Source: Methyloglobulus morosus KoM1 (GTDB lineage Bacteria > Pseudomonadota > Gammaproteobacteria > Methylococcales > Methylomonadaceae). From it: a DNA stretch of 40,501 nt. Both the position numbers and the translations under genes were made by a program. The notes beneath the pieces were generated by a model. It was not told the origin of the DNA, did not search any database, and saw only the letters and a program-made list of their open reading frames with translations. This document shows positions 21,459 to 40,501 of this stretch, in pieces. Position 1 is the stretch's first letter. Each line of letters begins with the position of its first letter. Location: assembly GCF_000496735.2 (NCBI RefSeq), contig NZ_AYLO01000015.1, forward strand, positions 13,277-53,777, written 5' to 3'.

Positions 21459-21941
21459 TTAGTCACGGAGTCCGGAAAAAACATAATTTTTGCCTTTTTG
21501 TGGTTCATGACAGCCAAAGCAGGATTTGCCGCCGTCGTTGACCAGGCGTTCGGTTTTGCTATTACCGGTAAAGCCTTCAAATCCCCAACCGCCTGTCGAT
21601 GCGTATTTGGTTGAATCCTTGCGCATCACGCCGACCAGTTTGCGTTCCCCTTCTTGTATGGTTTTATCCTTTTCCTCGTACTTCAAAAGGTCAAAAACCA
21701 ATACAGAGCCGTCGTCATATTTTCCGCTTTTCAGGCCTTTTGCCGCTTTGCCATTGGCGTAGACGTGATGGATGCCCTGGAAGGGATTTTCTAAGGCATG
21801 TCCAGGTTGTATGAGCATGGATTTGGCGTGTAACCAATTCCTGTAACCTTCAGGAAAAGGTACGCCATCTTTCTGTGCGAAACTTAATGTTGTAATAGCA
21901 CACAACAACCCAGCCAAGATGATCGATGGTCTTGTTTTCAT
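21459..21941 (-). CDS. cytS: Cytochrome P460
   Basis: Periplasmic mono-heme enzyme that oxidises hydroxylamine (and NO) to protect methanotrophs and ammonia oxidisers. The 160-residue precursor has a signal peptide (about 1-22, TTLSFA) and one heme motif near the C-terminus, CFGCHEPQKGKNYVFS, preceded by the family's GGWGFEGF and DDGSVLVFDLLK segments. ATG 21941 was chosen for its GGAGG site; an ATG 21 bases upstream is not needed. Whether this is true P460 with the Lys-heme crosslink or the related cytochrome c'-beta cannot be decided by eye. It carries the same operator-like motif as haoA 34 bases before its start. Confidence 0.87.
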   Translation of the reverse strand: MKTRPSIILAGLLCAITTLSFAQKDGVPFPEGYRNWLHAKSMLIQPGHALENPFQGIHHVYANGKAAKGLKSGKYDDGSVLVFDLLKYEEKDKTIQEGERKLVGVMRKDSTKYASTGGWGFEGFTGNSKTERLVNDGGKSCFGCHEPQKGKNYVFSGLRD

Positions 21942-21974
21942 AAAATTACCTCCGGTAGTCAAGAAATGAGGATT

Positions 21975-21997
21975 TATAGTTTCGATACGAAACTATA
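21975..21997 (-). promoter_or_regulatory. Perfect palindromic operator candidate upstream of cytochrome P460
   Basis: TATAGTTTCG and CGAAACTATA are perfect ten-base inverted arms around three bases, 34-56 bases before the P460 start codon. A TATAAA at the proximal edge (21978-21973 on the minus strand) may be the -10 box, so a bound protein would block or remodel the promoter. A related 18-base motif lies upstream of haoA at the same distance. Confidence 0.65.
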
Positions 21998-22032
21998 GCT
22001 ACATTTTTAATCCTATTCCCAGGGTTTGTCAA

Positions 22033-22050
22033 TATAGTTTTTATTCGATA
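22033..22050 (+). promoter_or_regulatory. Second copy of the hao/P460 motif
   Basis: TATAGTTTTTATTCGATA on the plus strand. Its reverse complement matches the motif upstream of haoA at 17 of 18 bases. It lies about 90 bases upstream of the P460 start, just after the haoB stop, in opposite orientation to the haoA copy. Confidence 0.55.
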
Positions 22051-22107
22051 TTAAAATACCGTTCCTTACAAAGCCATTCCAATAGCGATCAAGTGAATTG
22101 TCTATGG

Positions 22108-23115
22108 TCACCAATCAATCTTGTATATCGACAAATAGCCGCCCCAGTGGCTTTGGTAAACAAGATTGACGTGTTCTGGAAGTTTTTTGAGGGAATCAAC
22201 AAACGGTAGGAGGCGTACGAGAAGGGAATTCTTTTCCGCTTCAGATGCTTTAGCAGTAGCCCAAACATGGTAGTTAAGGCCTTCTTTTTGGACTAGGTAA
22301 TTACTGTCGCCTTCCTCAACAGCCCACTGCTTAATCTGGGCTATGTCGCCGTGAAGGTTATCATGGGCTTGGAAAGTTTTTGAGGCGAATCCTAAAGGTG
22401 CACCGCCGTAATCGACCATTTCACCCAGGCGCATGAGCAAGTCATTGGTGACCAGCAAATAGATTGGCCGCGACTTCCCAAGCATCTGGCGCATTTCCGC
22501 TAAAGCCTTGCCGCTATCCATCGTCAACCAACGCGCCATGGTGGACAAGTGTTCACGTTCGGAATCTGAAGCTATCAGTAGGCTATCCTGCAAATGTTGC
22601 CATACCGGACTGACGAAAGTTTGCGCCGCCGGTTTGCTTGCCCAAGCGTCCCGACCACTCAAAAAGTGGATTCTTTGCCCATCGTCCCACCAGCTTAGTA
22701 TCAGTGCATCTTTGGGCGTGTTTAGGCTGATGGCGTTAGCCGCTTCCTGCCAAATTGATTGCCGAAGCCCTGTCGCGCTTGGCAATACGCTTTCCGTCTG
22801 CTTGCTTTTGGGGAAAAGCACGACGCGGTTTTCTCGGCCTTGGCTATCTTTATAATGTGCCAGCAAAAGACTGAAAGCATCCTTGCCATCCCGTTGGACA
22901 GTAAAGTTATCAACGGAATCTACTGAAAACGCACCCTGTAGATCAGATACTTGCCCTTGGAGAAGGGTGAATTTTAGCGGCGCTGGATTTGTTAGCGAAG
23001 CTTCCTTTTCACCAACAAAAGCGCCTCTCACTTGTTGGAACAGCATTGCGCTGCCGGTTAACAGCAGCGCTCCGCAACCCAATGACAATACACTTTTTTT
23101 GATAGACCAGTCCAC
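22108..23115 (-). CDS. haoB: HaoB, membrane-anchored protein of the hydroxylamine oxidoreductase cluster
   Basis: A 335-residue protein with an N-terminal membrane segment (about residues 9-28) and a long periplasmic domain without heme motifs. It directly follows haoA with four bases between stop and start, the conserved haoA-haoB pair of methanotrophs and ammonia oxidisers. Its function is not known; roles in assembly of HAO or in its membrane docking are proposed from linkage. Recognisable family stretches include LSWWDDGQRIHFLSGRDAW (about 145) and a conserved tail SHWGGYLSIYKIDW. The symbol depends mainly on context and size. Confidence 0.85.
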   Translation of the reverse strand: MDWSIKKSVLSLGCGALLLTGSAMLFQQVRGAFVGEKEASLTNPAPLKFTLLQGQVSDLQGAFSVDSVDNFTVQRDGKDAFSLLLAHYKDSQGRENRVVLFPKSKQTESVLPSATGLRQSIWQEAANAISLNTPKDALILSWWDDGQRIHFLSGRDAWASKPAAQTFVSPVWQHLQDSLLIASDSEREHLSTMARWLTMDSGKALAEMRQMLGKSRPIYLLVTNDLLMRLGEMVDYGGAPLGFASKTFQAHDNLHGDIAQIKQWAVEEGDSNYLVQKEGLNYHVWATAKASEAEKNSLLVRLLPFVDSLKKLPEHVNLVYQSHWGGYLSIYKIDW

Positions 23116-23119
23116 AAGG

Positions 23120-24739
23120 TTATTGCTCTTCTTTTTTAGTCTTGAGGACTAAATAGCCCACGTAAAGCCCAAGTATTATCAAGACGAAGGAGGCTAATAG
23201 TGTACCGAAATCAGTCTTCTCATTAGTGTTAGAAATAGACGCGGAGGCTTTCGCACCCGGATTATTTCTAGCTGCCTCCCGCAATTTCGTATCTTCATCC
23301 ATAATTTCGGCGTAATCGCGCATCAGTGAAGACCAGCCTTCAGTATAGGTATACCCGCCTGGATTGGCGTGGAATAACCCTTTGTAATGCTTGATCAAGT
23401 CATGTTCCCACATGTCCGCATAAATCCGTTCGACGCGGCTGGGGTTGTTGCCTTTCGCCCAAAACAGTTGGAAAAACCCGCCCGCCGCATCTTTTTCAGG
23501 CTTAGGCGGTATTGGGCGGTTAGTGCTTTGCCCGGTCAGCAACCCGTCCTTAAATAAGTTATTGATGACGCTTTTGGCTTCCTGTTCCACTTTTATCCCC
23601 TGGATGGTGCCTTTGTCGGCAGTATCCAGATAGGCTTTGGCAAAGCTTTCCGAATGGCACAATGTACAGGTTTGGATCCAGGCTTGCTTACGGTCTTCAA
23701 ACCACGGATGGTTAAGGTTATTCGCTATTTCAGGTGTCGGGTTGAATGCCCAACGCACTTTCCGCACTAAGTTATGGGAATATTCGCCGTGGTATTCGAA
23801 ATGGCAGAGCTGGCAGGTCGGTGCGGTGTAACCGCCCTTGGTCAGCGCGTCTTTGAGAGGGGCTTCAAAATTCCATTGGCTTTTGCCCATGGTCAGGAAC
23901 TGTGTGCCGTGCTTGGACAGCATGAAGTTTTCAAACTCATTATGGTCGGCGCCGTTGTGGCAGGTAGAGCAAGCTTCCGGTTGACGCGCTTCCGCCACCG
24001 AAAAGGTGTGCCGGGTATGGCAACCGTCGCATTTGTTCTGCTGGTAATGGCAAGAGTCGCAGCCTTGGGCGACTTCCCTTTCCGGCATTGCCGCCCAAAC
24101 GGCATTCTCAACGTTGGCTTCCCAATCAACGGCATGGGAAGGATGGCCTTTATCCCATTGCTTTTGCGGCCATTCCTGGTTTTTTTCGGATTCCGCTTCG
24201 GCAAATTCGTTTTGGTGGCAGGTACCGCAAGCAGCGCGGTCCGGCATGATTAGGTCTTTGGCATGGTCGATAGTCTTTTTGCCAACGCCGCCGTGGCAGT
24301 CGATACAACCGACTTGCCCAAGTTGTTGGCCTTGTTCCAACAAGCCGAGCTCGTGCAGGTTGTTTTCGACCTCTGTCAATTTTGCCTTTTTATAAGCGCG
24401 CACGTCGGTGTCGGGGATATTGCGGATTGCCGCCAGATTGCTGTGCACACTTTTTTTCCAGGCATGATAAGCGCCCGGTGTGGTGGCTTCGTGACAACCC
24501 ACACAATTTTCCTGGGTGAATTCACCCTGTATGTTTTTAGGGGGCGTATAAAAATCTTTTGGGTTCCAATATTTTTGGATCGGTATGGGTTGCCAATATT
24601 CACCGTGGCTGCCTTTACCGGGGTGGGTGTCGTAATAGTTTTTTTTGACCTGTTCGAAATCAGGTTTTTCTGCCCAGGCTGTTTGCCAATTTAAGCAGAT
24701 CATTAATGTCGCCAACAAACAAAGCAACATGGTTTTCAT
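23120..24739 (-). CDS. haoA: Octaheme hydroxylamine oxidoreductase HaoA
   Basis: Periplasmic enzyme oxidising hydroxylamine, which arises when methane monooxygenase acts on ammonia. The 539-residue precursor has a signal peptide (about 1-23, TAWA) and exactly eight heme motifs: CVGCH, CIDCH, CGTCH, CDSCH, CDGCH, CSTCH, CQLCH, CTLCH. The C-terminal part has NPGGYTYTEGWSSL, containing the candidate Tyr that crosslinks to the P460-type heme 4 of a neighbouring subunit. Unlike the soluble Nitrosomonas enzyme, it ends in a membrane helix (about 508-530) and a basic tail. It forms an operon with haoB and has an operator-like motif upstream. Confidence 0.95.
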   Translation of the reverse strand: MKTMLLCLLATLMICLNWQTAWAEKPDFEQVKKNYYDTHPGKGSHGEYWQPIPIQKYWNPKDFYTPPKNIQGEFTQENCVGCHEATTPGAYHAWKKSVHSNLAAIRNIPDTDVRAYKKAKLTEVENNLHELGLLEQGQQLGQVGCIDCHGGVGKKTIDHAKDLIMPDRAACGTCHQNEFAEAESEKNQEWPQKQWDKGHPSHAVDWEANVENAVWAAMPEREVAQGCDSCHYQQNKCDGCHTRHTFSVAEARQPEACSTCHNGADHNEFENFMLSKHGTQFLTMGKSQWNFEAPLKDALTKGGYTAPTCQLCHFEYHGEYSHNLVRKVRWAFNPTPEIANNLNHPWFEDRKQAWIQTCTLCHSESFAKAYLDTADKGTIQGIKVEQEAKSVINNLFKDGLLTGQSTNRPIPPKPEKDAAGGFFQLFWAKGNNPSRVERIYADMWEHDLIKHYKGLFHANPGGYTYTEGWSSLMRDYAEIMDEDTKLREAARNNPGAKASASISNTNEKTDFGTLLASFVLIILGLYVGYLVLKTKKEEQ

Positions 24740-25018: not shown

Positions 25019-25098
25019 TTTTCATAACGCAGATTGACGGTGAGCAGCAACCTATCGACTCTTAGGCTGTAGAAATCAAGTTGAACTTCCCACAATTA

Positions 25099-25125
25099 TT
25101 AGCACTCTTAGCAATCGAGTGCTAA
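25099..25125. promoter_or_regulatory. CIRCE element (HrcA operator) upstream of rpoH
   Basis: TTAGCACTC-N9-GAGTGCTAA is a perfect match to the CIRCE consensus, 34 bases before the rpoH start codon. CIRCE is bound by the heat-shock repressor HrcA and is usually found before groESL or dnaK operons. Its position in the leader or promoter implies that rpoH transcription is repressed by HrcA. Confidence 0.95.
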
Positions 25126-25159
25126 AATTATGGCATATCTTAACTTTTAGGAGTTGCGA

Positions 25160-26017
25160 ATGAGTGATGTGATTACTTTGCCCGTGAATTTGTCGGTTGG
25201 TACGTTTGATGCGTATTTGAATGTCGTTAGGCAAATGCCTAAATTGACTCCCGAGCAAGAGCACGAACTTGCGATTAGGTTTCGGGACACTGGCGATTTG
25301 GCGGCGGCGCGTGAATTGGTCATGGCAAACCTTCGTTTTGTCGTCCATGTCGCCCGTGGCTATAGCGGTTATGGCTTGTCCATGCCGGATATTATCCAGG
25401 AAGGCAACGTCGGCTTGATGAAGGCCGTCAAACGCTTCGACCCCGAGATGGGTGTGCGATTGGTGTCGTTTGCCGTCCATTGGATCAAGGCCGAAATCCA
25501 CGAGTTCGTTATCAAGAACTGGGGCATCGTCAAGATAGCGACCACTAAAGCGCAACGCAAATTGTTCTTTAACCTACGCAAATCTAAACAGGGTTTAGGC
25601 TGGCTGTCCAATGATGAAGCCACAAATATCGCCAATGACCTGAATGTAGAAGTCAGCGCGGTGTTTGAAATGGAAAAGCGTTTGGGTAGCAGGGATATGT
25701 CCTACGATTTGCCGACGGATGCAGAAACTGACGATGCAACCTTGGAACCTGCGAGCTATTTATATGAGCAAAACGACGACCCAGCGGTAATGCTCGAAAA
25801 TGCCGAGTGGCGAGGCCGCGAACAAAAACTGCTGTCAAAAGCCCTGGACACGTTGGACGAACGCAGCCTGGACATCGTTTCCAGCCGCTGGTTAGCGGAA
25901 GATAAGGCGACACTGCACGAACTTGCCGAACGCCATCAGGTTTCCGCTGAAAGAATTAGGCAGTTGGAACAGAACGCCATGAAAAAACTGCGTGAAGCGG
26001 TCGTTTTTGCAGCTTAA
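25160..26017 (+). CDS. rpoH: RNA polymerase heat-shock sigma factor RpoH (sigma-32)
   Basis: Sigma factor for heat-shock genes. The 285-residue protein has region 1.2/2 (MPKLTPEQEHELAIRF; NLRFVVHVARGYSGYGL; DIIQEGNVGLMKAVKRFDP), the RpoH box region (QRKLFFNLRKSKQ, about residue 130), and region 4 HTH (ATLHELAERHQVSAERIRQL). ATG 25160 (MSDVITLPV) lies six bases after AGGAG and is preferred to an in-frame TTG at 25154. Single gene with its own CIRCE-controlled promoter and terminator. In E. coli rpoH directly follows ftsX; here it does not. Confidence 0.96.
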   Translation: MSDVITLPVNLSVGTFDAYLNVVRQMPKLTPEQEHELAIRFRDTGDLAAARELVMANLRFVVHVARGYSGYGLSMPDIIQEGNVGLMKAVKRFDPEMGVRLVSFAVHWIKAEIHEFVIKNWGIVKIATTKAQRKLFFNLRKSKQGLGWLSNDEATNIANDLNVEVSAVFEMEKRLGSRDMSYDLPTDAETDDATLEPASYLYEQNDDPAVMLENAEWRGREQKLLSKALDTLDERSLDIVSSRWLAEDKATLHELAERHQVSAERIRQLEQNAMKKLREAVVFAA

Positions 26018-26037: not shown

Positions 26038-26070
26038 AAAGGCTTAGGTCGCAAGACCTAAGCCTTTTTT
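26038..26070 (+). terminator. Rho-independent terminator after rpoH
   Basis: A 13-base perfect stem AAAGGCTTAGGTC / GACCTAAGCCTTT with a GCAA tetraloop, running into T residues (TTTTTT to 26070). It starts 20 bases after the rpoH stop. Confidence 0.95.
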
Positions 26071-26660: not shown

Positions 26661-29600
26661 ATGCACTATCTCCTTGTTCTATTACTGGTTTTATTTGCCC
26701 CATTGAGTTGGGCAGAGACGGTTATTGTCGATGAAACCTGCAACCATAAATATGGCGCTAAACTCGTTTCGTTGCAGGGTACGCTGTTAGTCGACCCAAA
26801 CCGAAAAGGCCACTGGCAACACGCACGGCTCAACCAAATGATTTGTGAAGGCAGTTGGGTCAAGGTTGACCCCAACAGCCGCGCTTCATTACGGCTATCC
26901 AACGGCATCATCCTACGCCTACACGAAGGTACAGTCGCCTCATTGGATGCCATTTCCCCCGAACAAGCCACCTTCTTGAACTTACTTAAGGGCTTTATCC
27001 ACTTTATTAGCCGTACCCCCAAGCTGCTTAAAATCAGCACCCCGATAGCCAATGCCGGCCCCGAAGGCACTGAATTTGCCATGAGCGTGGACGACACCAG
27101 CGCATCGCTCTGGGTTTACGAGGGCGGGGTCAAGTTTTTCAACGACAAGGGCAGCATCCACCTGAGTCCAGGACAAGGCGCTCAAGCCATGTTAGGCCAA
27201 GCCCCGCAAGCCAAAATCGACATCAAGCCGCAAGATGCCGTCAACTGGGCATTGTATTACCCGCCCGTATTGCCTTATCCCGATGCAACCGCCATTATCG
27301 ACAGTGGCATTCGTCAGGCCATACAGGATTACCGGCAAGGCCATGTCGATATCGCCTTACGCCAATTGGATGCATTATCGACGGAGCAACAAACGCCTTA
27401 TTTCCACAAAGTGCGCGGTGCCATGCGGCTTAGCGCTGGACAGGATAAGCTCGCCTTGCAAGACATTCAAGCCTTGCTGGCAATCAACCCTAACGATGCC
27501 GAAGCTTTGGCACTGAAATCGGTATTGGCGCTCACCCAAAACCGCAAAGACGAAGCCTATGCCTTAGCCACCCAGGCAATCACGGTCAATCCTCAATCCG
27601 CCAGCGCTTATTCGGCGTTATCTTATGCCGAACAAGGCCGCTTTAACTTGGACAAAGCCCAAGCCGCCGCCGACCACGCGGTAACGCTTGCCCCGCACGA
27701 TGCCATGGTGTGGGCACGTAAGGCCGAATTGCAACTGTCGCAAGGCTTAACGGAAGAAAGCCAACACGCAGCCGAAAAAGCCATCGCCTTGGATGCCAAC
27801 CTGGAGCGCACCCAAACCGTGCTGGGTTTTTCCTACCTGTTACGGATGGAAACCGATGCCGCCTTAGAAACTTTCAACAAAGCCATCCAATTCGATTCCA
27901 CCGCGCCCTTGGCGCGCTTAGGCCTAGGCCTAGCCAAGATCAGGAAGGGCGACCTGGAGCTAGGCCGCGAAGACCTGGAAACCGCCGCCATCCTCGACCC
28001 CAACAATTCCATCGTCAGGAGCTACCTGGGCAAAGCCTATTACGAAGAAAAACGTAGTCCTTTGGCGGAAGACCAATTCCGCTTGGCAAAAGAGCGTGAT
28101 CCCAAAGACCCTACGCCGTATTTTTATGATGCCATCAGTAAGCAGACCACTAATCGTCCGGCGGAAGCTCTGCAGGATATGCAGAAGGCGATTGTATTGA
28201 ACGATAATCGAGGGGTTTATCGGTCAAGTTTAGCCTTAGACAAGGATTTGGCGGCACGTAGTGCGGCACAAGGGCGAATTTACAGCGATTTAGGCTTTCA
28301 ACAGCTTGGTCTGGTTGAAGGATGGAAATCGGTTAATGCCGAACCATCGGATTATTCCGGTCATCGCCTACTTGCAGATTCATATTCTATACGACCGTCT
28401 TACGAGATTGCGCGTGTAAGTGAATTACTACAATCACAACTGTTACAACCGATAAATATAACGCCAGTACAGCCACAGTTAGCGGAAAGAAATTTGCTTT
28501 CTGCTCAAAGTTCAGGCCCCGGCACATTGTCTTTTAACGAATTCAATCCGATGTTCCAACGTGATCGCTTTACCTTACAAACGTCAGGTGTAGTGGGCAG
28601 CAACGATACCTATGGTGACGAAGTTACGCATTCTGGTTTATGGCGAAACCTATCTTATAGTCTTGGGCAATATCATTATCAAACAGAGGGATTCCGTGCA
28701 AACAATGATGTGAATGTAGATTTGTTCAATGGCTTTATTCAAGCGAGCATAACTCCAAGCCTCAGCGTTCAAGCCGAAATACGACATAAAAACACCGAGC
28801 GTGGCGATATAGATCTTAGGGCGGATGGTTTTTCTGATCCCACATTTCGGCTGGGAAGTGACAAAGATACCTATCGTGCAGGTTTACGCTATTCGTTCAA
28901 CCATAATTCAAACTTGATCGCTTCTTTTATTCATACAAATAGTGATTCTTTCCAAATTCTTACTTCTGAAAATGGTAAGCGTACTGATTCTATTTCCACT
29001 GGAGATCAGGGCGAAATTCAGCATTTGTTTCGCTCTGGCCTTATAGATACCGTCGCCGGTTTCGGCTTTTCTCAATCGGGCTTTACAAATGTAAACAAAC
29101 CTCTAAGTGGGACATCTGATTCACATGAAAACGGCTACTTATATTCTTATGTACATTATCCACATGATGTAGATTGGACGTTCGGTTTGAGTGTTGATTC
29201 TTTGGAATCAACTCCCCATAACCCCAAATTTTCTAAGCTGAAAAACAATCCGCTTAATCCAAAGTTTGGCATTATCTGGCGTGCCGAAAAAGGTACAATA
29301 GTTCGAGGGGCTGTGATTAGAACTTTAAAACGTTCGTTACTAACAAATCAGACGATTGAACCAACGCAAGTAGCAGGCTTCAACCAGTTTTATGACGATC
29401 TTACTTTAACCGATGCTTGGCTATACGGGCTTGCAATAGACCAAAAATGGGGTTCTCGACTCTTTGGTGGGTTAGAATATATTGCCCGGAATCTAAAATT
29501 GATATCAGAACATGTATGGCATGAGCGTTCATATCGAGCATACCTTAATTGGAATATTGCTTCCAAACTTTCCGCTAATTTTGCCTTTCATTTGGAGAAT

Positions 29601-29978
29601 TTCAATGGTGACAATGCAAATGTCCCGCTTTCGACAACAACTTATGACAGTAAAGCAGGTCTTCGATTTTTCGATCCGTCAGGTTTTTTCTGTAATTTGG
29701 AGGCTGAATATGTAAACCAGCGGACAGACTGGTCAGAAGGATTTGATGGCTCGCCTATCAGGCACAATGAATTTGTTTTGGTCAATACTGGAATTGGATA
29801 TCGCTTACCCAGGCGATTAGGTATTGTTCAACTGGATATCAAAAATATCTTTGATCAACAATTCAATTATCAAAGCCAAGGGGCTCGTTCTCCAGGGTTT
29901 AGCGATGATGCTGGAGGACAACCCCCGCCGTTCATTCCTGGAAGGACTGTATTTGCGCGGGTTACTCTAGCTTTCTAA
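26661..29978 (+). CDS. FecR-domain, TPR and outer-membrane beta-barrel fusion protein
   Basis: A 1105-residue exported protein. Residues 1-18 are a signal peptide (LFAPLSWA). Residues about 30-190 are a FecR-like domain (GSWVKVDPNSRASLRLSNG; ISTPIANAGPEGTEFAM; VYEGGVKFFNDKG; LSPGQGAQA). Residues about 215-520 are TPR repeats. Residues about 620-1105 alternate polar and hydrophobic like outer-membrane strands and end in Phe (TVFARVTLAF), a typical barrel end. Base composition drops sharply near 28110 (about residue 483), so the barrel half looks foreign to the front half. Function is unknown; a secretion or receptor barrel with a periplasmic sensing front is plausible. The 236-bp gap before it shows no clear promoter and only a weak ribosome site. 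Confidence 0.8.
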   Translation: MHYLLVLLLVLFAPLSWAETVIVDETCNHKYGAKLVSLQGTLLVDPNRKGHWQHARLNQMICEGSWVKVDPNSRASLRLSNGIILRLHEGTVASLDAISPEQATFLNLLKGFIHFISRTPKLLKISTPIANAGPEGTEFAMSVDDTSASLWVYEGGVKFFNDKGSIHLSPGQGAQAMLGQAPQAKIDIKPQDAVNWALYYPPVLPYPDATAIIDSGIRQAIQDYRQGHVDIALRQLDALSTEQQTPYFHKVRGAMRLSAGQDKLALQDIQALLAINPNDAEALALKSVLALTQNRKDEAYALATQAITVNPQSASAYSALSYAEQGRFNLDKAQAAADHAVTLAPHDAMVWARKAELQLSQGLTEESQHAAEKAIALDANLERTQTVLGFSYLLRMETDAALETFNKAIQFDSTAPLARLGLGLAKIRKGDLELGREDLETAAILDPNNSIVRSYLGKAYYEEKRSPLAEDQFRLAKERDPKDPTPYFYDAISKQTTNRPAEALQDMQKAIVLNDNRGVYRSSLALDKDLAARSAAQGRIYSDLGFQQLGLVEGWKSVNAEPSDYSGHRLLADSYSIRPSYEIARVSELLQSQLLQPINITPVQPQLAERNLLSAQSSGPGTLSFNEFNPMFQRDRFTLQTSGVVGSNDTYGDEVTHSGLWRNLSYSLGQYHYQTEGFRANNDVNVDLFNGFIQASITPSLSVQAEIRHKNTERGDIDLRADGFSDPTFRLGSDKDTYRAGLRYSFNHNSNLIASFIHTNSDSFQILTSENGKRTDSISTGDQGEIQHLFRSGLIDTVAGFGFSQSGFTNVNKPLSGTSDSHENGYLYSYVHYPHDVDWTFGLSVDSLESTPHNPKFSKLKNNPLNPKFGIIWRAEKGTIVRGAVIRTLKRSLLTNQTIEPTQVAGFNQFYDDLTLTDAWLYGLAIDQKWGSRLFGGLEYIARNLKLISEHVWHERSYRAYLNWNIASKLSANFAFHLENFNGDNANVPLSTTTYDSKAGLRFFDPSGFFCNLEAEYVNQRTDWSEGFDGSPIRHNEFVLVNTGIGYRLPRRLGIVQLDIKNIFDQQFNYQSQGARSPGFSDDAGGQPPPFIPGRTVFARVTLAF

Positions 29979-31253: not shown

Positions 31254-31823
31254 TTACTTACAGGTCTCAGTGAAAATTGAAATGGTGATGATTCTGCGAA
31301 CCCTTCAAATGCCACCACCTCGATAGATATGCACGATAGGCCTGGATACGCACCATCCCCCTACCCAATTCGTGTTCATAAGGAATCAAGGCTTCCAGCA
31401 CAGACCTATCGGTAAAAAACAAGCAACGTTCGGGGACGTTTATTGCTCTTCGATGATAGCTCGGTTGTTTTCTTTCAGGCGCTGAATACAAGGCTGAGGC
31501 CAGCAATTCTGCCGATATGGACAAGCACGTCTGACTCGGTTGCGGCCTGCATTGCTATAACATATTGATTGTTAATGCATAAAAAACTAGAACTTGCACC
31601 ATATTCCGCGAGAGTCGACAGCAAAAAACCGCTGTCGCTGGGATTCCAATGCTGGGGGAAAACCGTTAACCTGACGTGGCCAATGCGATGTCGGCTTATT
31701 TGGGGTAGTATGCACATAGCTGCAAAAAGCGCCGCCTAATTTCGCACTGCATGCCTCTTCACGCTAAAATGTCTGGCAGAAAACATGCCATCCCACATTT
31801 TCGGCGTGTTACAAGGAGAATTT
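31254..31823. other. Degenerate region between the RAYT remnant and the Tn3-type transposase
   Basis: No intact gene is supported. On the minus strand, 31475-31717 reads HVRLTVFPQHWNPSDSGFLL, then STLAEYGASSSFLCINNQYV, then IGRIAGL, which looks protein-like and may be a fragment of a gene cut off at its 5' side by the transposon. No start with ribosome site is present and I cannot name a family. I looked for a 38-bp Tn3-type terminal repeat beginning GGGG here and found none that matches the right side. Confidence 0.35.
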
Positions 31824-34814
31824 GTGAAGTGGCATTGGAACGAAGACGAACTGGCGATGCATTGGTCATTATCGATTGAGGAATTGGCATTGCTGCCAAG
31901 TCGTACCGATAGCGGTAGACTTGGATTTGCAATTCTATTGAAATTCTTTCAATTTCAAGGTTTCTTTCCCGGCAGTCAAAAAGGCATACCGCACGAGATT
32001 GCAGTCTACCTTGCGCTGGCAACCAATTCGGCGGTGGCAGATTTGAAAATTTACGAATGGGACGGACGCACCGGCCAGCGGCATCGCAAGAAAATCCTGG
32101 GCTTTCTGGGGCTACGTCGCCCATCAGGTGAGGATTTGCAAAAACTGCGCACATGGCTGACTGCTGAAGTCTTGGCGCTGGATGTTCCATTCGAGCGATT
32201 GCAGGAATTGGCTGTTGAGTGGTTCGCCCGGCAATCGCTGGCACCGCTTGATCCCAGCCCATTGGAGCGGTTACTTCGATCAGCTACTCATGCTTTTGAG
32301 GCTGAACTATTCCAATCCATCGCCAACCTGCTAAGTGCCGAAACCAAGACATCAATAGACAAATTATTGACGGTCGAAGAGCCAAACGTCAATGATGAAA
32401 ATGGTGCCATCGAAAATGCTTCCATCGTCAAAGACGGCGCTCTTGGTTTGTCGCACCTCAAATCCGACGCTGGCCGAATAGGCCTGGATAGCGTTTTGCA
32501 GGAGCTCGCCAAACTGGGCAGAATTCGCAAGCTTGCATTACCGAGTAAAGCATTGGCCGTACTTCCCATCAAATGGTTACAAAAATACCGTCGCCGAGTC
32601 GGGACCGAGTCAAGTTGGGAATTGCGACGGCATCCGCCGGAAATACGCTACGCCTTGGCAGCGGCGTACTGCTGGCAACGAGAGCACGAGATCATCGACG
32701 CATTGATCGATTTGCTAATTCTGGTCATTCACAAGATCGGTGTTCGCGCCGAAAATAAGGTCGAGCAAGAATTGCTCAACGATTTACGCCGTGTGCGTGG
32801 CAAAACCAATGTCTTGTTCAAATTGGCGGAAGCGGCCATCGATGAACCTGATGGCATCGTCAAGGATGTATTGTATCCAGTGGTCGGGTTGGAAACACTG
32901 AAAGACTTAGTCAAAGAATTTAAGGCCAGCGGCCCTGCCTATACCAAGGTGGTACATACGGTCATTCGCTCCTCATACAGCAATCACTATCGCCGGATGT
33001 TGCCGCAGATACTTGATGCGCTGGAATTCCGTTCCAACAACACCGCACACCGACCGGTGATTGAAGCCTTGGGTCTGCTCAAAACTTACCGCGACAGCAC
33101 GCAACAATATTTTTCTGCCGAGGATGTAGTGCCGATTGAGGGTATCGTCAAAGGCAAATGGCGCGACATAGTTGTGGAAAAAGACAAGAATGACAAAGAG
33201 CGTGTCAATCGCATCAACTATGAAATTTGTGTACTGCAAGCATTGCGCGAGCGGCTGCGCAGCAAGGAAATCTGGGTCGTTGGTGCCGAGCGCTTCCGTA
33301 ATCCAGATGAGGATTTGCCCGCCGACTTTAAAACCAACCGAGCTACCTACTATGAAGCACTCAAGCAACCACAGGACGGCAAGGCATTCATCGACGGGTT
33401 GAAGAAAACGATGACGGACGCCCTATGCATGTTGAACAAGGGAATGCCAAAAAATCCACGAGTCAAAATTCTTGATCGTGGCAAGAACCGTATTTGCATT
33501 ACTCCGCTGGATGCGCAACCTGACCCGGAAAACCTCAAGCACCTGAAAGCCGAAATATTTGAACGCTGGTCATCCACCAGCTTGTTGGATATCCTCAAGG
33601 AAGCCGATTTGCGGGTAGGTTTCACCGATTTGTTCCAGAGCAGCCGGCAGCGCGAAACGCTGGATCGTGATACCTTGCAACGGCGTCTACTACTGAGCCT
33701 CTATGCGTTAGGCACAAACGCCGGACTCAAACGAATTGCAGCGGCGGGACATGAGACGACTTATCAGGAATTGCGTTACGTGCGCCACCGTTTCATCCAA
33801 AAAAGTACATTGCGGGCAGCTATTTCCCAAGTCGCCAATGCGACTTTCGCTGTTCGCCTTCCAGAAATATGGGGTGAAGGCACGACCACCTGCGCGTCGG
33901 ACTCCAAAAAATTCGGCTCCTGGGATCAGAATTTGATGACCGAGTGGCATATTCGCTACGGCGGTCGTGGCGTGATGATCTACTGGCATGTCGAGAGCAA
34001 ATCGGTCTGTATCTACTCGCAACTGAAACGATGCTCCTCCTCCGAAGTGGCGGCTATGATCGAAGGTGTATTGCGTCATGATACCGATATAGATGTTCAG
34101 AAAAGCTATACGGACAGCCACGGGCAGAGCGAAGTCGGCTTCGCTTTTTGTCATCTGCTCGGCTTCGATTTGTTGCCACGTCTGAAAGCCGTCGCTTCAC
34201 AAAAGTTGTACTTGCCGGAAACAGACAGTTCCGGCAATTATTCCAATCTCACTGAGATTTTGACGCGTCCAATCAAATGGGATTTGATACACCAACAGTA
34301 TGATGAAATGATCAAATACGCAACCGCGTTGCGCCTGGGTACAGCAGAAGCCGAAGCCATTCTTCGCCGCTTTACGCGTGGCAACCTGCAATATCCGACT
34401 TACCAAGCATTAGCGGAACTTGGCAAAGTGTTGAAAACTATTTTCTTGTGCCGGTATATTGATTCGGAAGGGCTGCGCCGTGAGATTCACGAGGGTTTGA
34501 ACGTTGTAGAAAACTGGAACAGCGCCAATGGATTCATCTTCTACGGCAAGAGCGGTGAGGTCGCCAGCAACCGACTGGAAGATCAGGAATTATCGGTATT
34601 GTCGCTGCATTTATTGCAATTATGCTTGGTGTACGTCAATACCTTGATGATTCAGCGCGTGCTATCGGAAAAGCCCTGGTGTAACAGGATGAAAACTGCG
34701 GATTTGAGAGCACTGTCTCCGCTGATTTATAGTCATGTGAATCCGTATGGGCGATTTGATTTGGACATGAGTAAACGGCTCCCAATCGAAACTGATTTTG
34801 CGCTGGTGGCATAG
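31824..34814 (+). CDS. tnpA: Tn3-family transposase TnpA
   Basis: Large DDE transposase of replicative transposons. The 996-residue protein has the N-terminal DUF4158 domain ([40 protein letters not shown]) and the C-terminal Tn3 DDE domain ([59 protein letters not shown]). I chose GTG 31824, six bases after AAGGAGAA, rather than ATG 31785, because the family N-terminus begins at this point and 31785 has no ribosome site. Full length and apparently intact. Followed by a toxin-antitoxin pair and tnpR, all plus strand. Confidence 0.93.
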
Positions 34815-34998
34815 ATATAATCACCGAGCAAGGTTTTGTTGAGCAGATACCTTGTTGCGCAAACGGAGGTTTTTGAGAAGCCTTGATGCGTTATCTCTGA
34901 GATGCACAGGATCAAGGCTCTTCTATTCTCACAAATAGTTCTTGAAACTATATTCTCAATCCACTACTATGACAACGAGTTTTGATAAGGAGTCGAGC
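34815..34998. other. Inverted repeats between tnpA and the antitoxin; candidate res or promoter region
   Basis: AGCCTTGAT (34879-34887) and ATCAAGGCT (34911-34919) are a perfect inverted repeat around 23 bases. A smaller pair CAAGGT (34829-34834) and ACCTTG (34849-34854) lies just upstream. In Tn3 elements that carry a toxin-antitoxin pair, the resolution site and its regulated promoter usually lie near this junction. No canonical three-subsite res could be laid out by eye. Confidence 0.4.
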
Positions 34999-35229
34999 AT
35001 GGGACAACTAAATCGCATTACCCAAGCCCCCGATATGATGGGTGGCAAAGCCTGTATCCGTGGAATGCGCGTCACAGTCGGTATGATTGTGGGACAAGTC
35101 GGCGCTGGACACAGCATTGATGAAATTCTCGCCGACTACCCCTACCTTGAGCGCGAAGATATTATGCAGGCACTTCGTTACGCTGCCTGGTTAGCTGAAG
35201 AACGCGAGGTCGTACTGGCCTCCGCATGA
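34999..35229 (+). CDS. DUF433-family antitoxin
   Basis: A 76-residue antitoxin-like protein of the DUF433 (VapB45-like) family: MGQLNRITQAPDMMGGKACI, RGMRVTVGMIVGQVGAGHS, DEILADYPYLEREDIMQALR. I chose ATG 34999, six bases after AAGGAG, over the ATG at 34942. It overlaps the toxin gene by four bases (ATGA), giving coupled translation. Likely binds and neutralises the next protein and represses its own promoter. Its place between tnpA and tnpR fits toxin-antitoxin modules embedded in Tn3-family transposition units. Confidence 0.88.
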   Translation: MGQLNRITQAPDMMGGKACIRGMRVTVGMIVGQVGAGHSIDEILADYPYLEREDIMQALRYAAWLAEEREVVLASA

Positions 35230-35603
35230 AGCTGATCGTTGATATGAACCTGTCGCCACGCTGGGCCGGTTTGTTGGTCAAGTCGGGCATTGAGGCAGCA
35301 CACTGGTCAGAGTTAGGGGCGAACAATGCACCGGATTCTGAAATCATGACCTATGCCAGGGTAAATGATTATGTAGTTCTCACCCACGATTTAGACTTCA
35401 GCGCGATCCTTGCCGCCACACATGGCGAGAAGCCCAGCGTCGTGCAAATTCGCGCGGAAGATGTCAGTCCTGATGTTATCGGGTTGCAGGTCATCGCCGC
35501 TTTGCGGCAAATGGCAATCGAATTGGAGAACGGCGCATTGCTGACCGTTGAGCCGAATCGCACCCGAATGCGACTACTACCTTTGAACTGGTCTCTGGAT
35601 TAG
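35226..35603 (+). CDS. DUF5615 PIN-like toxin
   Basis: A 125-residue PIN-like (Mut7-C/VapC45-type) putative ribonuclease: MKLIVDMNLSPRWAGLLVKS with the first acidic residue Asp6, then HWSELGANNAPDSEIMTYAR and VVLTHDLDFSAIL with the second acidic cluster. The pairing with an upstream DUF433 gene is a known toxin-antitoxin combination. It ends three bases before the resolvase start, so TA and tnpR are probably one transcript. Confidence 0.88.
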   Translation: MKLIVDMNLSPRWAGLLVKSGIEAAHWSELGANNAPDSEIMTYARVNDYVVLTHDLDFSAILAATHGEKPSVVQIRAEDVSPDVIGLQVIAALRQMAIELENGALLTVEPNRTRMRLLPLNWSLD

Positions 35604-35606
35604 AAA

Positions 35607-36164
35607 ATGCTTATTGGCTATGCACGCGTCTCGACGCAAGATCAAAACCTTGAGCTTCAAATCGATGCCTTGACTAAGGCGGGCTGCAAGAAAATTTTCG
35701 ACGACAAAATAAGCGGCAGTCGTGCTGAGCGCCCCGGCCTGACCAAGGCATTGGAAATGTTGCGTGAAGACGATACCCTTGTGGTTTGGAAGCTGGACAG
35801 GCTTGGCCGCAGCGTCAAGAATTTGGTTAATCTGGTTGGCGAATTGCACAAGCAAGGTGTCCAGTTCAAAAGTCTCACCGATGCGATCGACACTGGCACC
35901 CCTTCCGGCCGATTTTTTTTCCATGTCATGGCGAGTTTGGCGGAAATGGAGAGAGAACTGACAGTCGAGCGTACCCGTGCCGGCCTCGAAGTCGCACGGC
36001 AACTGGGCCGAAAAGGAGGCCGTAAGAGGCAGATGACCGACAGTAATATTGAATCAGCCAAGAAATTGCTGGCTAACGGAGTGCCGCCCCGGGATGTGGC
36101 AAAGAATCTTGGTGTTTCAGTGCCCACTTTATATAGATGGATTCCAGCATCCACAAATACATGA
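35607..36164 (+). CDS. tnpR: Serine resolvase TnpR
   Basis: A 185-residue small serine recombinase that resolves cointegrates of the Tn3-type element. Catalytic domain: MLIGYARVSTQDQNLELQID (catalytic Ser9), DDTLVVWKLDRLGRSVKNLV and GRFFFHVMASLAEMERELTV. The C-terminal Hin-type helix-turn-helix is about residues 140-182 (MTDSNIESAKKLLANGVPPR; LGVSVPTLYRW). Complete and same strand as tnpA and the TA pair. Confidence 0.94.
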   Translation: MLIGYARVSTQDQNLELQIDALTKAGCKKIFDDKISGSRAERPGLTKALEMLREDDTLVVWKLDRLGRSVKNLVNLVGELHKQGVQFKSLTDAIDTGTPSGRFFFHVMASLAEMERELTVERTRAGLEVARQLGRKGGRKRQMTDSNIESAKKLLANGVPPRDVAKNLGVSVPTLYRWIPASTNT

Positions 36165-36349
36165 TAAGCACTCTAAAGCAGGCGCTGGCTTATACTATGT
36201 TTTTTATCTGACAGACCGTGCTCGACCCACAGCGGAAGTTGGCGAGACAAATATTTAACCGCTCCTAAGCGGACATCCAGGTTGGGCTCCTCTACGATTT
36301 TAGGAACGGGGGGCGCCCCGCAAAACGAGTGCCATTTTATATAGTGCAA

Positions 36350-36420
36350 ATTATGCGGACATAAGGGGCGAAGCGGAAGGCGATCCCGCTGTGTTTGTTC
36401 GCATAATCCGAAGCATTATG
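36350..36420. repeat. Paired TTATG/CATAA half-sites downstream of tnpR
   Basis: Two nested inverted pairs occur within 71 bases: TTATG-N4-CATAA (36351-36364) and CATAAT-N7-ATTATG (36402-36420). In addition ATTATGCG (36350-36357) and CGCATAAT (36400-36407) are perfect inverted arms of a larger structure. GC-rich GGGGCGCCCC lies just upstream (about 36310). The spaced half-sites resemble recombinase core sites (Xer dif-like arms) or a transposon end. The rest of the 290-bp gap between tnpR and the immunity gene shows nothing else. Confidence 0.45.
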
Positions 36421-36454
36421 TAACTTGGCGCGGGTTTGCCCGGACAACGCGAAC

Positions 36455-36745
36455 CTATGGCCTTATAGACTTACCAACTAATGCTTCAATGTCTTGTAAG
36501 GCCTTAGAAATAATTTTTTTATTTGCATCACTAAGATTTGTATTTGTGTTCAAGTTGGCAGCATTTACTTGCTCCATTTCCAAAACAATTGGAAATAGAG
36601 CATCTTTCCACTCTTGAATACCAATAGCGTCTGAAATTTCTTCAACTCGCTTTATAAGCGCATTTAAGTGAAGCAATCCAGCTCGATAATCTTCAATGGC
36701 TTTACGCAGAATACTAATCTGTCGATGTAAAAATTCGCTCATCAT
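36455..36745 (-). CDS. Probable immunity protein for the Rhs toxin tip
   Basis: A 96-residue all-helical cytosolic-type protein (HRQISILRKAIEDYRAGLLH; NALIKRVEEISDAIGIQEW; NKKIISKALQDIEALV). No known family is recognised. It starts four bases after the Rhs stop codon on the same strand and shares the low GC of the Rhs C-terminal tip, not of the Rhs core. That placement is the standard signature of the cognate immunity gene of a polymorphic toxin. Either of two adjacent ATG codons can be the start. Confidence 0.68.
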   Translation of the reverse strand: MMSEFLHRQISILRKAIEDYRAGLLHLNALIKRVEEISDAIGIQEWKDALFPIVLEMEQVNAANLNTNTNLSDANKKIISKALQDIEALVGKSIRP

Positions 36746-36749
36746 AAAC

Positions 36750-39533
36750 CTATTTAGGAATAACAGTAATCACTTGCCCATTTTCACCTGTCACTACAGT
36801 TACTCCATTATCGCCAGAGTGAACGGTCGTTCCAGGTTGGTTTCCAGGAGATGATTGTCCATTCCGAATGGCATCCTCGACAGGAGTTGGTGTTAAACCT
36901 CGCCCCTGCATTTGATCTAGTGCGTGACCGGTATAGTCTCTGCCATCAATATTTGTTGGCGCATTTGTTCCCCTGGGAACATCCATAGGCCCACCACGTT
37001 GACCTGTAGGCGTGCTTGGATGTTTGTCACCCGAATCACCATTGGCCTCATTAAAGAATTTCTTGATGCCGTTGACACAAATCTCAGCTATCTTTCTGCA
37101 TCGATCAGGATAAATGGCGCAGTATAGAGAACCTACTACAACTCCGCCGCCAATAACAACCGCGTCATCTACTCCTGCTATCAGTCCAGTTGGATCGGTG
37201 AAATTAACCGGGTTGCCCCCGACATAGGCATAGGTGTTGATCCCCCCCGCCAACCCGATCAGGTCGCTCTCATAATAAGTCCCTGTGCCGGGCGAGTAGT
37301 ATCGGTGGTTGTTGTAGTACAGCCCGGTCTCGGTGTCGTACAGCTGGCCGGGGAACCGGGGGTTGTAGACGAAGTTGCCCAGGCCGGACGGGTTCGGGTT
37401 GGGCTGGGCCGCGCCGAAGGGGTCGGCATTGTCCCACCGCCAGACCATCTGGTTGTCGCTGCTGCGGGTGATGACCCTGGGCGTGCCCAAGTGGTCGGTG
37501 AAGACATAGTTGACGCTGGTGCTGACTATGATGGGTTGGGTCACCACCGCGTCGGCGGCGACGCTGCCGAGGTTGGAGGTGGCGAGCTTTAAGGACGCAG
37601 TGAGGTTGCCCGGCCTGGCGACCGGCATCCCCAGGGCAATCCAGGTGTTGCCCCTGGCCCTTTGGTCCACGCTGGCCGTAAACGAGCCGTCCGCGCCGGT
37701 GAAGGTGTAGCTGGCGTTGCTGGCACGGGTGGCATCGGCCGTCCAGCGGACATAGAGATAGTACAGGCCGGGCGACTGCAACGCCAGGTTCCAGGTGAAG
37801 CTGTCGGTGGTCGCCGTGGTGGCGGCATGGGTCTGGTAGTTGGTGCCGTAATAGCCCGCAATGGCGGTGTCCACCGGCCACGGGCCAACGGCGGCGACGC
37901 TGCCGGTGGCAGTGTTGTCGATGTAAATGCTTCGGGGGCCGTCACCGGTGAAGCTTTGTTTCAGCACCGCAACGGGCAGGTCGCCCAGGTACACGGTCTC
38001 TTGCAGAGGGAGCCCACGGATGTCGTATTCGCCCAACAGGTGGCCTTGTTCGTCATAGCTGTACTGGGCGAACGTGTTGACGCTGTATTTTTTGACCCGT
38101 TGGCCCAGGCCGTCGTAGAGGTATTTGTTGACGAACCCCGTGGTGGTGTCGGTCACCGTTTGCAGCAGGCCGCGGTCGCTGTAGGCGTAACTGGAGGAAC
38201 CGTCGTTCAGGAGGTTGCCGGACAGGTCGTAGGTGCGGTTGGGTGCGCTGGCGGCGGTCTTGAGCAGGCGGTTGCTGAAGCCGTCGATGGTCTGTGTGTT
38301 GGTGCCGGTGGCGGTGCGGTTGCCGGTGGCGTCGTAAGCGTAGGCTTGGTTGCCGGCCGGGCCGGTGGTGCCGGTGACCCGGCCCAGGTTGTCATAGCTG
38401 AAGCCCTGGTCGAAGTTGGCCGGGGCGAAGGCGCCGGTGCCCGTGCCGGTGTGGGTATAGCCGGTCACCCGGCTGGCGGCGTCGTAATGCAAGGTGCGGA
38501 ACGTGCCGTTTTTACTTGGGTTGCCCAGGTGGTAGGAGGCGATGCGCCCGTCGAGGTCGTCGGCGTGGACCATGCCGCTCCAACTGGTCGGCGTGTGGTT
38601 GCCCCAGGCACCGGAATAGAACTGGCCGGACGGGGTGTACTGGATGCTGTTGAGGATGACGGTGGTGACGGCGGTGTTGGTGCCCAGGCCATTGCTGTTG
38701 GTCGGGTTGAGGGTAATGCCGCTGATCCGGCCGTTGGCGTCGTAGCTGTAGTTGATCCGGTTGCCGCTGGGGTAGGTGACGCTGGCCAGCTTGCCGTTGG
38801 CGGTGTCGGCGGTGCCATAGCTATAGCTGACGGTTTGTACCCATAAGGGCTGGTTGCCGGAGAGCGTCCGGGTCTTGGCGGTGACCCGCCCCAAGGGGTC
38901 GTAACTGTAGGTGGTCGACCCGGATTCGTCGTCGATGCGGGTCAGCCTGCCGATGTTGGCAGGGTTGCTGTTGCCGGTGCCGCCGTCGTAGGTGTAGACG
39001 GTGTCGGTGCCGGTGGGGTAGTCGGCCTTGGTCAGCCGATCCTGGGCGTCGGTGCTGTACAGGGTGGTCTTGCCCCGGGCATCGGTGCGGCTTTTAAGGT
39101 TGCCGGCGGCATCGTAGGTGGCGGTGGCCGCGCCGCTGTCGGGGCTGGCCGTGGCCGTGAGGTCGCCCAGGCCGGTGGGGCTGTAGGTGGTCTGGTTGGC
39201 CCGTGGGTCGTTGACCCAGGTCAATTGGTCCTGGCCGTCATGGTCGAGCTGGGTGTGGGGGCGGGCCTGGCCGCCGCCCGGGAGGGGTTGGAGGATGTCA
39301 GTGGCCCGGTCCAGGCTGTCGTAGCCGGTGTCGGTGGCCACGGGGTTGGTGGCGGTGTCGAGCGGGCTGGTGGCCTTGGTGGGGTTGCCTTGGGCGTCGT
39401 ACTGGTAATGGGTGGTGGTGTCCTGGACGGCCTGGGCGGATGCGCTGAAGCCGAGCAGGAGGGTCAGCAAGGTGGCCTGGAGGGCGGTTTGGGCACGCAG
39501 GGTTACGGCGATGGGGCGGTCAGTCGCTCTCAT
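36750..39533 (-). CDS. Rhs/YD-repeat polymorphic toxin with golvesin-like insert and C-terminal RNase-like tip
   Basis: A 927-residue protein with its own signal peptide (about residues 1-37, LLTLLLGFSASAQA). YD repeats run from about 40 to 520 (YQYDAQGNPTKATSP, YSYDPLGRVTAKTRT, YLYDGLGQRVKKYS). Residues about 533-668 form a golvesin-like beta domain (AIAGYYGTNYQTH; YYLYVRWTADATRASNASYT). The Rhs core signature follows (FTDHLGTPRVITRS; FPGQLYDTETGLYYNNHRYY; GLAGGINTYAYVGGNP) to about 785. The last 142 residues are a variable tip ending HALDQMQGRGLTPTPVEDAI and VVTGENGQVITVIPK, a pattern seen in BECR/DUF4258-like ribonuclease toxins. GC is very high up to about 37250 and drops abruptly in the tip. 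Confidence 0.88.
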   Translation of the reverse strand: MRATDRPIAVTLRAQTALQATLLTLLLGFSASAQAVQDTTTHYQYDAQGNPTKATSPLDTATNPVATDTGYDSLDRATDILQPLPGGGQARPHTQLDHDGQDQLTWVNDPRANQTTYSPTGLGDLTATASPDSGAATATYDAAGNLKSRTDARGKTTLYSTDAQDRLTKADYPTGTDTVYTYDGGTGNSNPANIGRLTRIDDESGSTTYSYDPLGRVTAKTRTLSGNQPLWVQTVSYSYGTADTANGKLASVTYPSGNRINYSYDANGRISGITLNPTNSNGLGTNTAVTTVILNSIQYTPSGQFYSGAWGNHTPTSWSGMVHADDLDGRIASYHLGNPSKNGTFRTLHYDAASRVTGYTHTGTGTGAFAPANFDQGFSYDNLGRVTGTTGPAGNQAYAYDATGNRTATGTNTQTIDGFSNRLLKTAASAPNRTYDLSGNLLNDGSSSYAYSDRGLLQTVTDTTTGFVNKYLYDGLGQRVKKYSVNTFAQYSYDEQGHLLGEYDIRGLPLQETVYLGDLPVAVLKQSFTGDGPRSIYIDNTATGSVAAVGPWPVDTAIAGYYGTNYQTHAATTATTDSFTWNLALQSPGLYYLYVRWTADATRASNASYTFTGADGSFTASVDQRARGNTWIALGMPVARPGNLTASLKLATSNLGSVAADAVVTQPIIVSTSVNYVFTDHLGTPRVITRSSDNQMVWRWDNADPFGAAQPNPNPSGLGNFVYNPRFPGQLYDTETGLYYNNHRYYSPGTGTYYESDLIGLAGGINTYAYVGGNPVNFTDPTGLIAGVDDAVVIGGGVVVGSLYCAIYPDRCRKIAEICVNGIKKFFNEANGDSGDKHPSTPTGQRGGPMDVPRGTNAPTNIDGRDYTGHALDQMQGRGLTPTPVEDAIRNGQSSPGNQPGTTVHSGDNGVTVVTGENGQVITVIPK

Positions 39534-40501
39534 TGCACACCCCCGGTGACGGTTTGCAGGCGGCCCAGGGCATCGTAGGCCCGGGCGATGTTGCGCCTGA
39601 GCACGTTGCCGGGGTCGGTGGCCGTCTCGTTGGTGCGGTTGCCCAGGTTGTCGAGGGTGTAGCTGACCTTGTTGCCCAGGCTGTCGGTGACGGACACCAA
39701 GCGGTGGGCGTTGTCATAGCCGTAGGTCAGGACGCTGGTGTCGGGGGCGGTGACGGTCTTCAATAATCCGGTGGGGTCATAGCCGTAGCTGGTGGTTTGC
39801 ACCAGGGTGCTGGCACTGTCCCGGGTGGTCAGGGTCTTCAGCCAGCCCCGGGGGGTGTAGGCCAGGGTGGTGACCACGCCGTTGGGGGCAGTCGTTTGGG
39901 TTAGCCTGCCGTTGCCGTCGTAGCTGTCGAAGGTGGTTTTCTGGCCGAGGGCGTTGGTGACGTCCTTGGGGTTGCCCCGGTTGCCCAACACGGGGTCGGC
40001 GACAGGGTAGTAGGTGGTGGCGGTGACGTCCGATACGTCGGTACGCGGGCCGTCGGCGGTGAGGACTTGGCCGAAATTGTTGTAGGTGTAGCCCCAGGTG
40101 CGGGCGGTGCCGGTGACGGTGGGGGTCAGGCCTACCACGCCGGCCGGGTCGGTGGTGGCCTGTTCGGTGCGGGACAGGACGTTGCCGGTCGCATCGTAGG
40201 TGTAGGTGGCCAACCGCTTGGGTTCGGCGACCTGTAAGGGCAGCCGGTACGTGCCATGCCATTGGGTGCTGACCTTGCGGGCGGGGGCGGGCAGGCTGGA
40301 CGCCGCCAGGTTCACCGTGCAGTCGGCGACGCTGGCCAGGCCTTCGACCCGGGCGGTCTCAAGGTTTCGGGACAGGTCGTAGGCATAGCACACCTTGTGG
40401 CCGTTGAAGTCGGTCCTTGAGGCGACGTTGCCGTTGGCATCGTAGGTCATGGCAGACGAGGCCGCACTACAGCCGGAGCCGCCGGGCTGGTCGGTGCCGG
40501 T
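39530..40501 (-). CDS. Upstream Rhs/YD-repeat protein, partial (5' end outside window)
   Basis: The frame is open to the window edge, giving at least 323 residues. YD repeats are evident: MTYDANGNVASRTDFNGHKV, YAYDLSRNLETARVEG, YTYDATGNVLSRTE, YGYDNAHRLVSVTDS, YTLDNLGNRTNETA, RAYDALGRLQTVTGGVQ. It ends with TGA that overlaps the start of the next Rhs gene by four bases, so the two are translationally coupled. It has no core signature or toxin tip. It looks like the front portion of a large Rhs protein whose back portion is encoded by the following gene. Very high GC, with many false antisense frames. Confidence 0.85.
   Translation of the reverse strand, partial: TGTDQPGGSGCSAASSAMTYDANGNVASRTDFNGHKVCYAYDLSRNLETARVEGLASVADCTVNLAASSLPAPARKVSTQWHGTYRLPLQVAEPKRLATYTYDATGNVLSRTEQATTDPAGVVGLTPTVTGTARTWGYTYNNFGQVLTADGPRTDVSDVTATTYYPVADPVLGNRGNPKDVTNALGQKTTFDSYDGNGRLTQTTAPNGVVTTLAYTPRGWLKTLTTRDSASTLVQTTSYGYDPTGLLKTVTAPDTSVLTYGYDNAHRLVSVTDSLGNKVSYTLDNLGNRTNETATDPGNVLRRNIARAYDALGRLQTVTGGVQ

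Follow-up and report, generated by a model that had tools for sequence, protein, structure and literature searches.

We conclude that the inverted repeat in front of rpoH in Methyloglobulus morosus KoM1 is probably (at a rough probability of 0.78) a functional HrcA operator placed on top of the rpoH promoters, which would be of the sigma-E type and/or the sigma-70 type. The window, i.e., the whole stretch of 40,501 nucleotides analyzed here, carries at 25099–25125 (forward strand) the sequence TTAGCACTC-TTAGCAATC-GAGTGCTAA, a 9-9-9 inverted repeat which agrees with the CIRCE consensus TTAGCACTC-N9-GAGTGCTAA without a mismatch and is separated from the rpoH ATG (25160) by 34 nt. The first-pass annotation had claimed a perfect CIRCE upstream of rpoH, and this is borne out. 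When up to three mismatches were allowed, the repeat was the sole match in the window, and no CIRCE occurred in any of 100 dinucleotide shuffles of the window. Judged by its sequence, which is also kept in relatives, the site looks like a real HrcA operator.

The gene behind it, rpoH (25160–26017, forward strand), encodes a heat-shock sigma factor sigma-32 of 285 aa, which was identified by the TIGR02392 profile (389.3 bits; cut-off 323.1) and by alignment with E. coli RpoH. It is preceded by a ribosome binding site AGGAG (25149–25153, forward strand) and followed by an intrinsic terminator-like hairpin with a T tail (26038–26067, forward strand). In the genome (183 contigs, 99.97% complete), this RpoH is the one protein above the TIGR02392 cut-off; a second true rpoH was considered, but the other three matches all fall below it. 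The alignment showed a stretch identical to E. coli, QRKLFFNLRK, the RpoH box. Since these residues are as in E. coli, control of the RpoH protein by chaperones and proteases probably remains, and HrcA would probably form an extra layer on top of it.

The genome further contains hrcA (PF01628, E = 3.8e-65), whose absence would have counted against HrcA control of rpoH, as the first gene of hrcA-grpE-dnaK-dnaJ, and also rpoE (TIGR02939, 306.8 bits; cut-off 236.15). A genome-wide scan for CIRCE, a check which the first-pass annotation had proposed, gave three sites at up to three mismatches, all perfect, located upstream of rpoH, hrcA and groES. A reversed control pattern gave two matches at up to three mismatches and none at two. 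Thus, the predicted HrcA regulon consists of three operons, one of them being that of the heat-shock sigma factor.

Regarding the genomic neighborhood, between 5831 and 25160 of the window ftsX (TIGR00439) ends at 6838 and rpoH begins 18 kb further on. The interval holds genes for a PQQ methanol dehydrogenase, moxJ, a response regulator, a histidine kinase, a cytochrome P460, haoB and a multi-haem cytochrome. The last three occupy 21459–24739 and suggest that putative hydroxylamine oxidation genes adjoin rpoH; the multi-haem cytochrome bears a remote resemblance to hydrazine dehydrogenase (128.6 bits vs. a cut-off of 900). On the other side, the next large ORF 3′ of rpoH (26661–29978) encodes a 1105-residue protein with FecR and TPR-repeat parts, and a Tn3-family transposase, a resolvase and RHS/YD-repeat genes follow at 31785–40450.

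Conservation within the order Methylococcales was assessed in two sets. The named set comprises the best 80 rpoH loci of 341 relatives (81 sequences with the window), titled as Methylococcales or Methylococcaceae methanotrophs, and in one case only as Gammaproteobacteria. A CIRCE with up to three mismatches was present in all 80 loci, and in 79 of them it lies 30–38 nt from the rpoH start; the exception is L062 (133 nt). The order sample comprises 151 genomes (our own and 150 others), of which all 144 with rpoH were examined, 30 via rpoH loci, 27 via joined coordinates and 87 via fetched stretches. Among those with joined coordinates, the CIRCE is within 60 nt of rpoH in 26/27, the remaining one being G006 at 171 nt. 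The far distances in L062 and G006 suggest an insertion or a wrong start. At rpoH, a CIRCE with at most two mismatches was found in 126 of the 130 genomes with hrcA vs. 5 of the 14 lacking it (Fisher p = 2e-8, the genomes being partly non-independent). Conservation in other methanotrophs, which the first-pass annotation had raised, is seen in the named set. Eleven genomes of the order have no CIRCE at all at this threshold; ten of these have no hrcA, and G014 has hrcA in two pieces. The five hrcA-negative genomes which keep the rpoH site have two to three CIRCE sites each, which would fit hrcA genes located in assembly gaps.

The same comparison was extended to 150 genomes over the class Gammaproteobacteria. 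Here, 144 have rpoH, 142 of them outside the order, and 111 of these 142 were read, picked by hrcA status and rank in the score list and not by CIRCE. The hrcA-negative group of 23 consists of 13 genomes listed as negative and 10 taken as negative from their absence among 108 positives. A site with at most two mismatches was detected at rpoH in 75/88 genomes with hrcA vs. 4/23 without (Fisher p = 1e-9; the genomes are mostly of different families, and the value is uncorrected for kinship). Among the 13 hrcA-bearing genomes in which the stretch read had no such site, five have a site with three mismatches. Mononucleotide shuffles, which keep the base composition, yielded 0/1440 sequences with a match at up to three mismatches. 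Three genomes have two rpoH matches: in G176 one copy has a CIRCE upstream and the other, which is the one counted, has none; in G292 no site was found at one copy, and at the second there is just a match with three mismatches; and in G071 (73% complete) both rpoH matches have a CIRCE. Most of the relatives with hrcA in this sampling of the Gammaproteobacteria share the predicted rpoH operator, and a CIRCE at rpoH particular to methanotrophs is ruled out by its class-wide presence. The putative HrcA-rpoH circuit is accordingly peculiar neither to the M. morosus KoM1 genome nor to methanotrophs. The HrcA control of rpoH suggested in the first-pass annotation finds good support in these comparative data: hrcA is present, the site is kept class-wide and it is usually missing where hrcA is missing. 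The accompanying statement that HrcA usually acts on chaperone operons needs to be qualified, as the class-wide counts place an operator at rpoH too.

Nine hrcA-negative genomes (five of the order, four of the class sample) retain a site with at most two mismatches, and one could suppose that the repeat does not regulate rpoH at all, having arisen by chance or being an inert relic. Against this stand the shuffled windows, the class-wide conservation and the association with hrcA, and we regard it as very improbable.

In the window, the CIRCE overlies candidate promoter elements of two types, which were absent from the first-pass annotation. A sigma-E type −35, TGAACTT (25082–25088, forward strand), matches GGAACTT at 6/7 positions and stands in the phase seen in the class-wide set. 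It is followed, 17 nt after GAACTT, by a sigma-E type −10, TCTTA (25106–25110, forward strand), made up of the TC of the left CIRCE arm, which belongs to the CIRCE regardless, and the TTA of the spacer. Sigma-E −10 elements are of the TCTGA/TCAAA type with a spacing of 16–17 nt. The window departs from the usual form in having TGAACTT and not GGAACTT, which PMC8103513 gives as the −35 sequence of E. coli RpoE, and a spacer of 17 nt, not the commoner 16 nt. A consensus scan also indicated a sigma-70 type −35-like hexamer, TTAGCA, in the left CIRCE arm (25099–25104, forward strand) and a sigma-70 type extended −10, TGC-TAAAAT, with a conserved final T, on the right arm (25120–25128, forward strand). 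TTAGCA and the −10 together match at 9/12 positions, and the region has two such matches vs. a shuffle mean of 1.7, i.e., within chance.

The phase of these elements was examined in 83 class-wide sites aligned on the CIRCE, from which three sites with three mismatches (L247, L290, L315) were excluded. GAACT or GAACC starts 15 nt upstream of the CIRCE in 47 sites and 16 nt upstream in 8 (together 55/83); in the interval from −19 to −9 it occurs in 58/83, vs. 1.56 expected over these 11 positions. A T and an A at spacer positions 1 and 3 were found in 42/83, giving TCTNA with the left arm, and this TCTNA across the border of left arm and spacer has the place and the form of a predicted sigma-E −10 behind a 16-nt spacer. 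Likewise, the final T of TAnnnT, located 3′ of the right arm and yielding an extended −10 TGCTAnnnT, is present in 74/83. Within one sample, the groES sites, used as a control, had the final T in 1/11, T-n-A in 0/11 and GAACT/C in 0/11, vs. 14/15, 7/15 and 8/15 for the rpoH sites; the hrcA sites, only two in number, gave 0/2, 1/2 and 0/2. Mismatches to the CIRCE are lopsided as well: A3 is replaced by G in 24 sites and the mirror position, T25, by C in 2; T25 is the first base of the sigma-70 type −10. From its sequence context, the CIRCE thus appears to be built into promoters which would be read by other sigma factors. The overlap changes the regulatory logic, as sigma-E could supply the polymerase and HrcA a veto.

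Less probable, though deserving consideration, is a simple HrcA operator overlying a housekeeping promoter; M. morosus would then use the sigma-70 type promoter alone, and its sigma-E motif would be a fading remnant. The TG before TAAAAT makes a good extended −10, and AATT 3′ of the CIRCE is conserved at 93–100% in the 44 of 81 rows profiled, in which the CIRCE lies no further than 33 nt from the start. Furthermore, GAACT/C is in place in 17/81 sequences of the named set, the window included, and missing in 64/81, where the CIRCE stays; at −15 or −16 it is found in 27/76 other sequences of the order. As the motif is this patchy in Methylococcales, sigma-E input is not general in the order, and the putative sigma-E part seems to have been lost in much of it while the CIRCE was retained. 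However, GAACTT is in phase in the window and, among the six named relatives nearest to it (L009–L014), in all but L011, and rpoE is present in the genome. We prefer the reading in which the operator overlies both predicted promoter types.

The repeat might also act mainly as an RNA hairpin (an ftsX terminator, an mRNA stabilizer or a thermometer) and not as a DNA operator. It would form a 9-bp stem if transcribed as a whole, ftsX lies directly upstream of rpoH in 69 of the 78 named relatives tested, and the repeat persists in the nine hrcA-negative genomes mentioned above. However, transcripts started at either of the proposed promoters would not contain the left arm, and the leader folded no better than shuffled sequences without the left arm (z of −0.03 and 0.61), with −0.83 when it was included. 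No Rfam match was obtained at E up to 1, the presence of the repeat tracks hrcA, and in the window the site is still perfect although ftsX is 18 kb off. An RNA-level function is accordingly improbable and not favored over a DNA operator.

Genomes without hrcA were inspected for what is left of the arrangement. In family f7, five of the six hrcA-negative genomes with rpoH (G019, G027, G039, G043 and G056; the exception is G013) keep GAAC[T/C]-N16-TCTTA at the old place, the rest of the CIRCE having decayed; in G027 and G043, a remnant with four mismatches is visible. In the hrcA-negative stretches of the class, a sigma-E-like motif was detected in 10/23, vs. 0/23 on the reverse strand. A CIRCE-like site persists in three of these ten (L290, L292, L294), and in two of the ten (L289, L297) the motif occurs only at least 129 nt upstream. 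E. coli K-12 has no hrcA, as seen in its use as a control in the PF01628 search, and no CIRCE was found at its rpoH (best match with eight mismatches over the start of the gene and the 217 nt before it). GAACTT-N16-TCTGA is located upstream of rpoH about 120 nt from the ATG and corresponds to the promoter P3. The E. coli gene thus resembles the class-wide set in having a sigma-E motif with N16, the commonest spacing in the class, and differs from the M. morosus gene in lacking CIRCE and hrcA and in the distance of the motif from the ATG (about 120 nt vs. 77 nt). The level of sigma-32 in E. coli depends mostly on translation and turnover.

P3 of E. coli rpoH is sigma-E dependent (PMC8103513) and P3 of Pseudomonas aeruginosa rpoH is AlgU dependent (PMC13104619). 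Taken together, the patterns in f7, in the hrcA-negative genomes of the class and in E. coli indicate that the operator tends to follow hrcA and that the sigma-E motif can outlive the operator. E. coli seems to have lost the CIRCE-promoter arrangement. We lean, by a modest degree, towards an ancestral Gammaproteobacterial rpoH promoter that was a composite of sigma-E elements, a sigma-70 extended −10 and an HrcA operator within about 47 bp, at which envelope stress and cytoplasmic misfolding met; P3 of E. coli would then be a remnant after hrcA loss, and the mainly post-transcriptional control of sigma-32 would be derived.

From the sequence itself, the presence of hrcA and rpoE, the three-site regulon, the conservation, the phasing and the site-hrcA association, we infer HrcA binding, promoter use, transcription starts and circuit behavior as follows. 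Transcription of rpoH would start from the sigma-E type promoter TGAACTT-N17-TCTTA and/or from the sigma-70 extended −10 promoter TGCTAAAAT. HrcA on 25099–25125 would cover the −10 of both and exclude the polymerase; as both promoters overlap the CIRCE, bound HrcA would shut both. According to the GroE-titration model, cytoplasmic protein damage occupies GroEL and HrcA activity is lost. Its release would derepress groESL, hrcA-grpE-dnaKJ and rpoH together, and RpoH would raise its own regulon, until the resulting chaperones restore HrcA and curb RpoH. Envelope stress would enter via sigma-E, subject to the HrcA veto, so that cytoplasmic and envelope stress may converge on a 47-bp element. The hierarchical circuit of the first-pass annotation, leading from HrcA release via RpoH to the regulon, is plausible and can reasonably be drawn from these data.

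Known systems share parts of this arrangement. Ueki and Lovley reportedly studied RpoH of Geobacter. The Bacillus-type HrcA/CIRCE system has the operator, the repressor family and the chaperone-operon targets in common with M. morosus; Bacillus is not known to have RpoH, and unlike there, the repressor is here also predicted to act on a sigma factor gene. The closest likeness is Geobacter sulfurreducens, for which a CIRCE at rpoH was predicted by Rodionov et al. (2004, PMC545781): the accessible part of that paper gives a perfect CIRCE at −51 of rpoH and the identical three CIRCE operons, hrcA-grpE-dnaKJ, groESL and rpoH. In contrast to our case, this is a prediction only, for one of the deltaproteobacteria studied, and that part of the paper makes no mention of a sigma-E promoter overlap or of an hrcA-loss comparison. 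Within the accessible portion of the open-access literature, outside of which most subscription papers fall, a CIRCE at rpoH was reported in PMC545781 only, and no report of a class-wide rpoH CIRCE or of the sigma-E overlap was found. Thus, the idea of a CIRCE at rpoH has been known since 2004, and the class-wide pattern, the fixed promoter phase and the sigma-E motif outliving the CIRCE are apparently new.

Textbook accounts of the heat-shock circuit rest on E. coli, an organism that has no HrcA. Should rpoH be controlled by HrcA in most Gammaproteobacteria with this repressor, from a promoter which also responds to sigma-E, the E. coli circuit would be a reduced case. The link between two stress systems would, if true, become testable on one short DNA fragment, and the loss of hrcA together with the CIRCE, with the sigma-E motif surviving in some genomes, would amount to a natural rewiring experiment.
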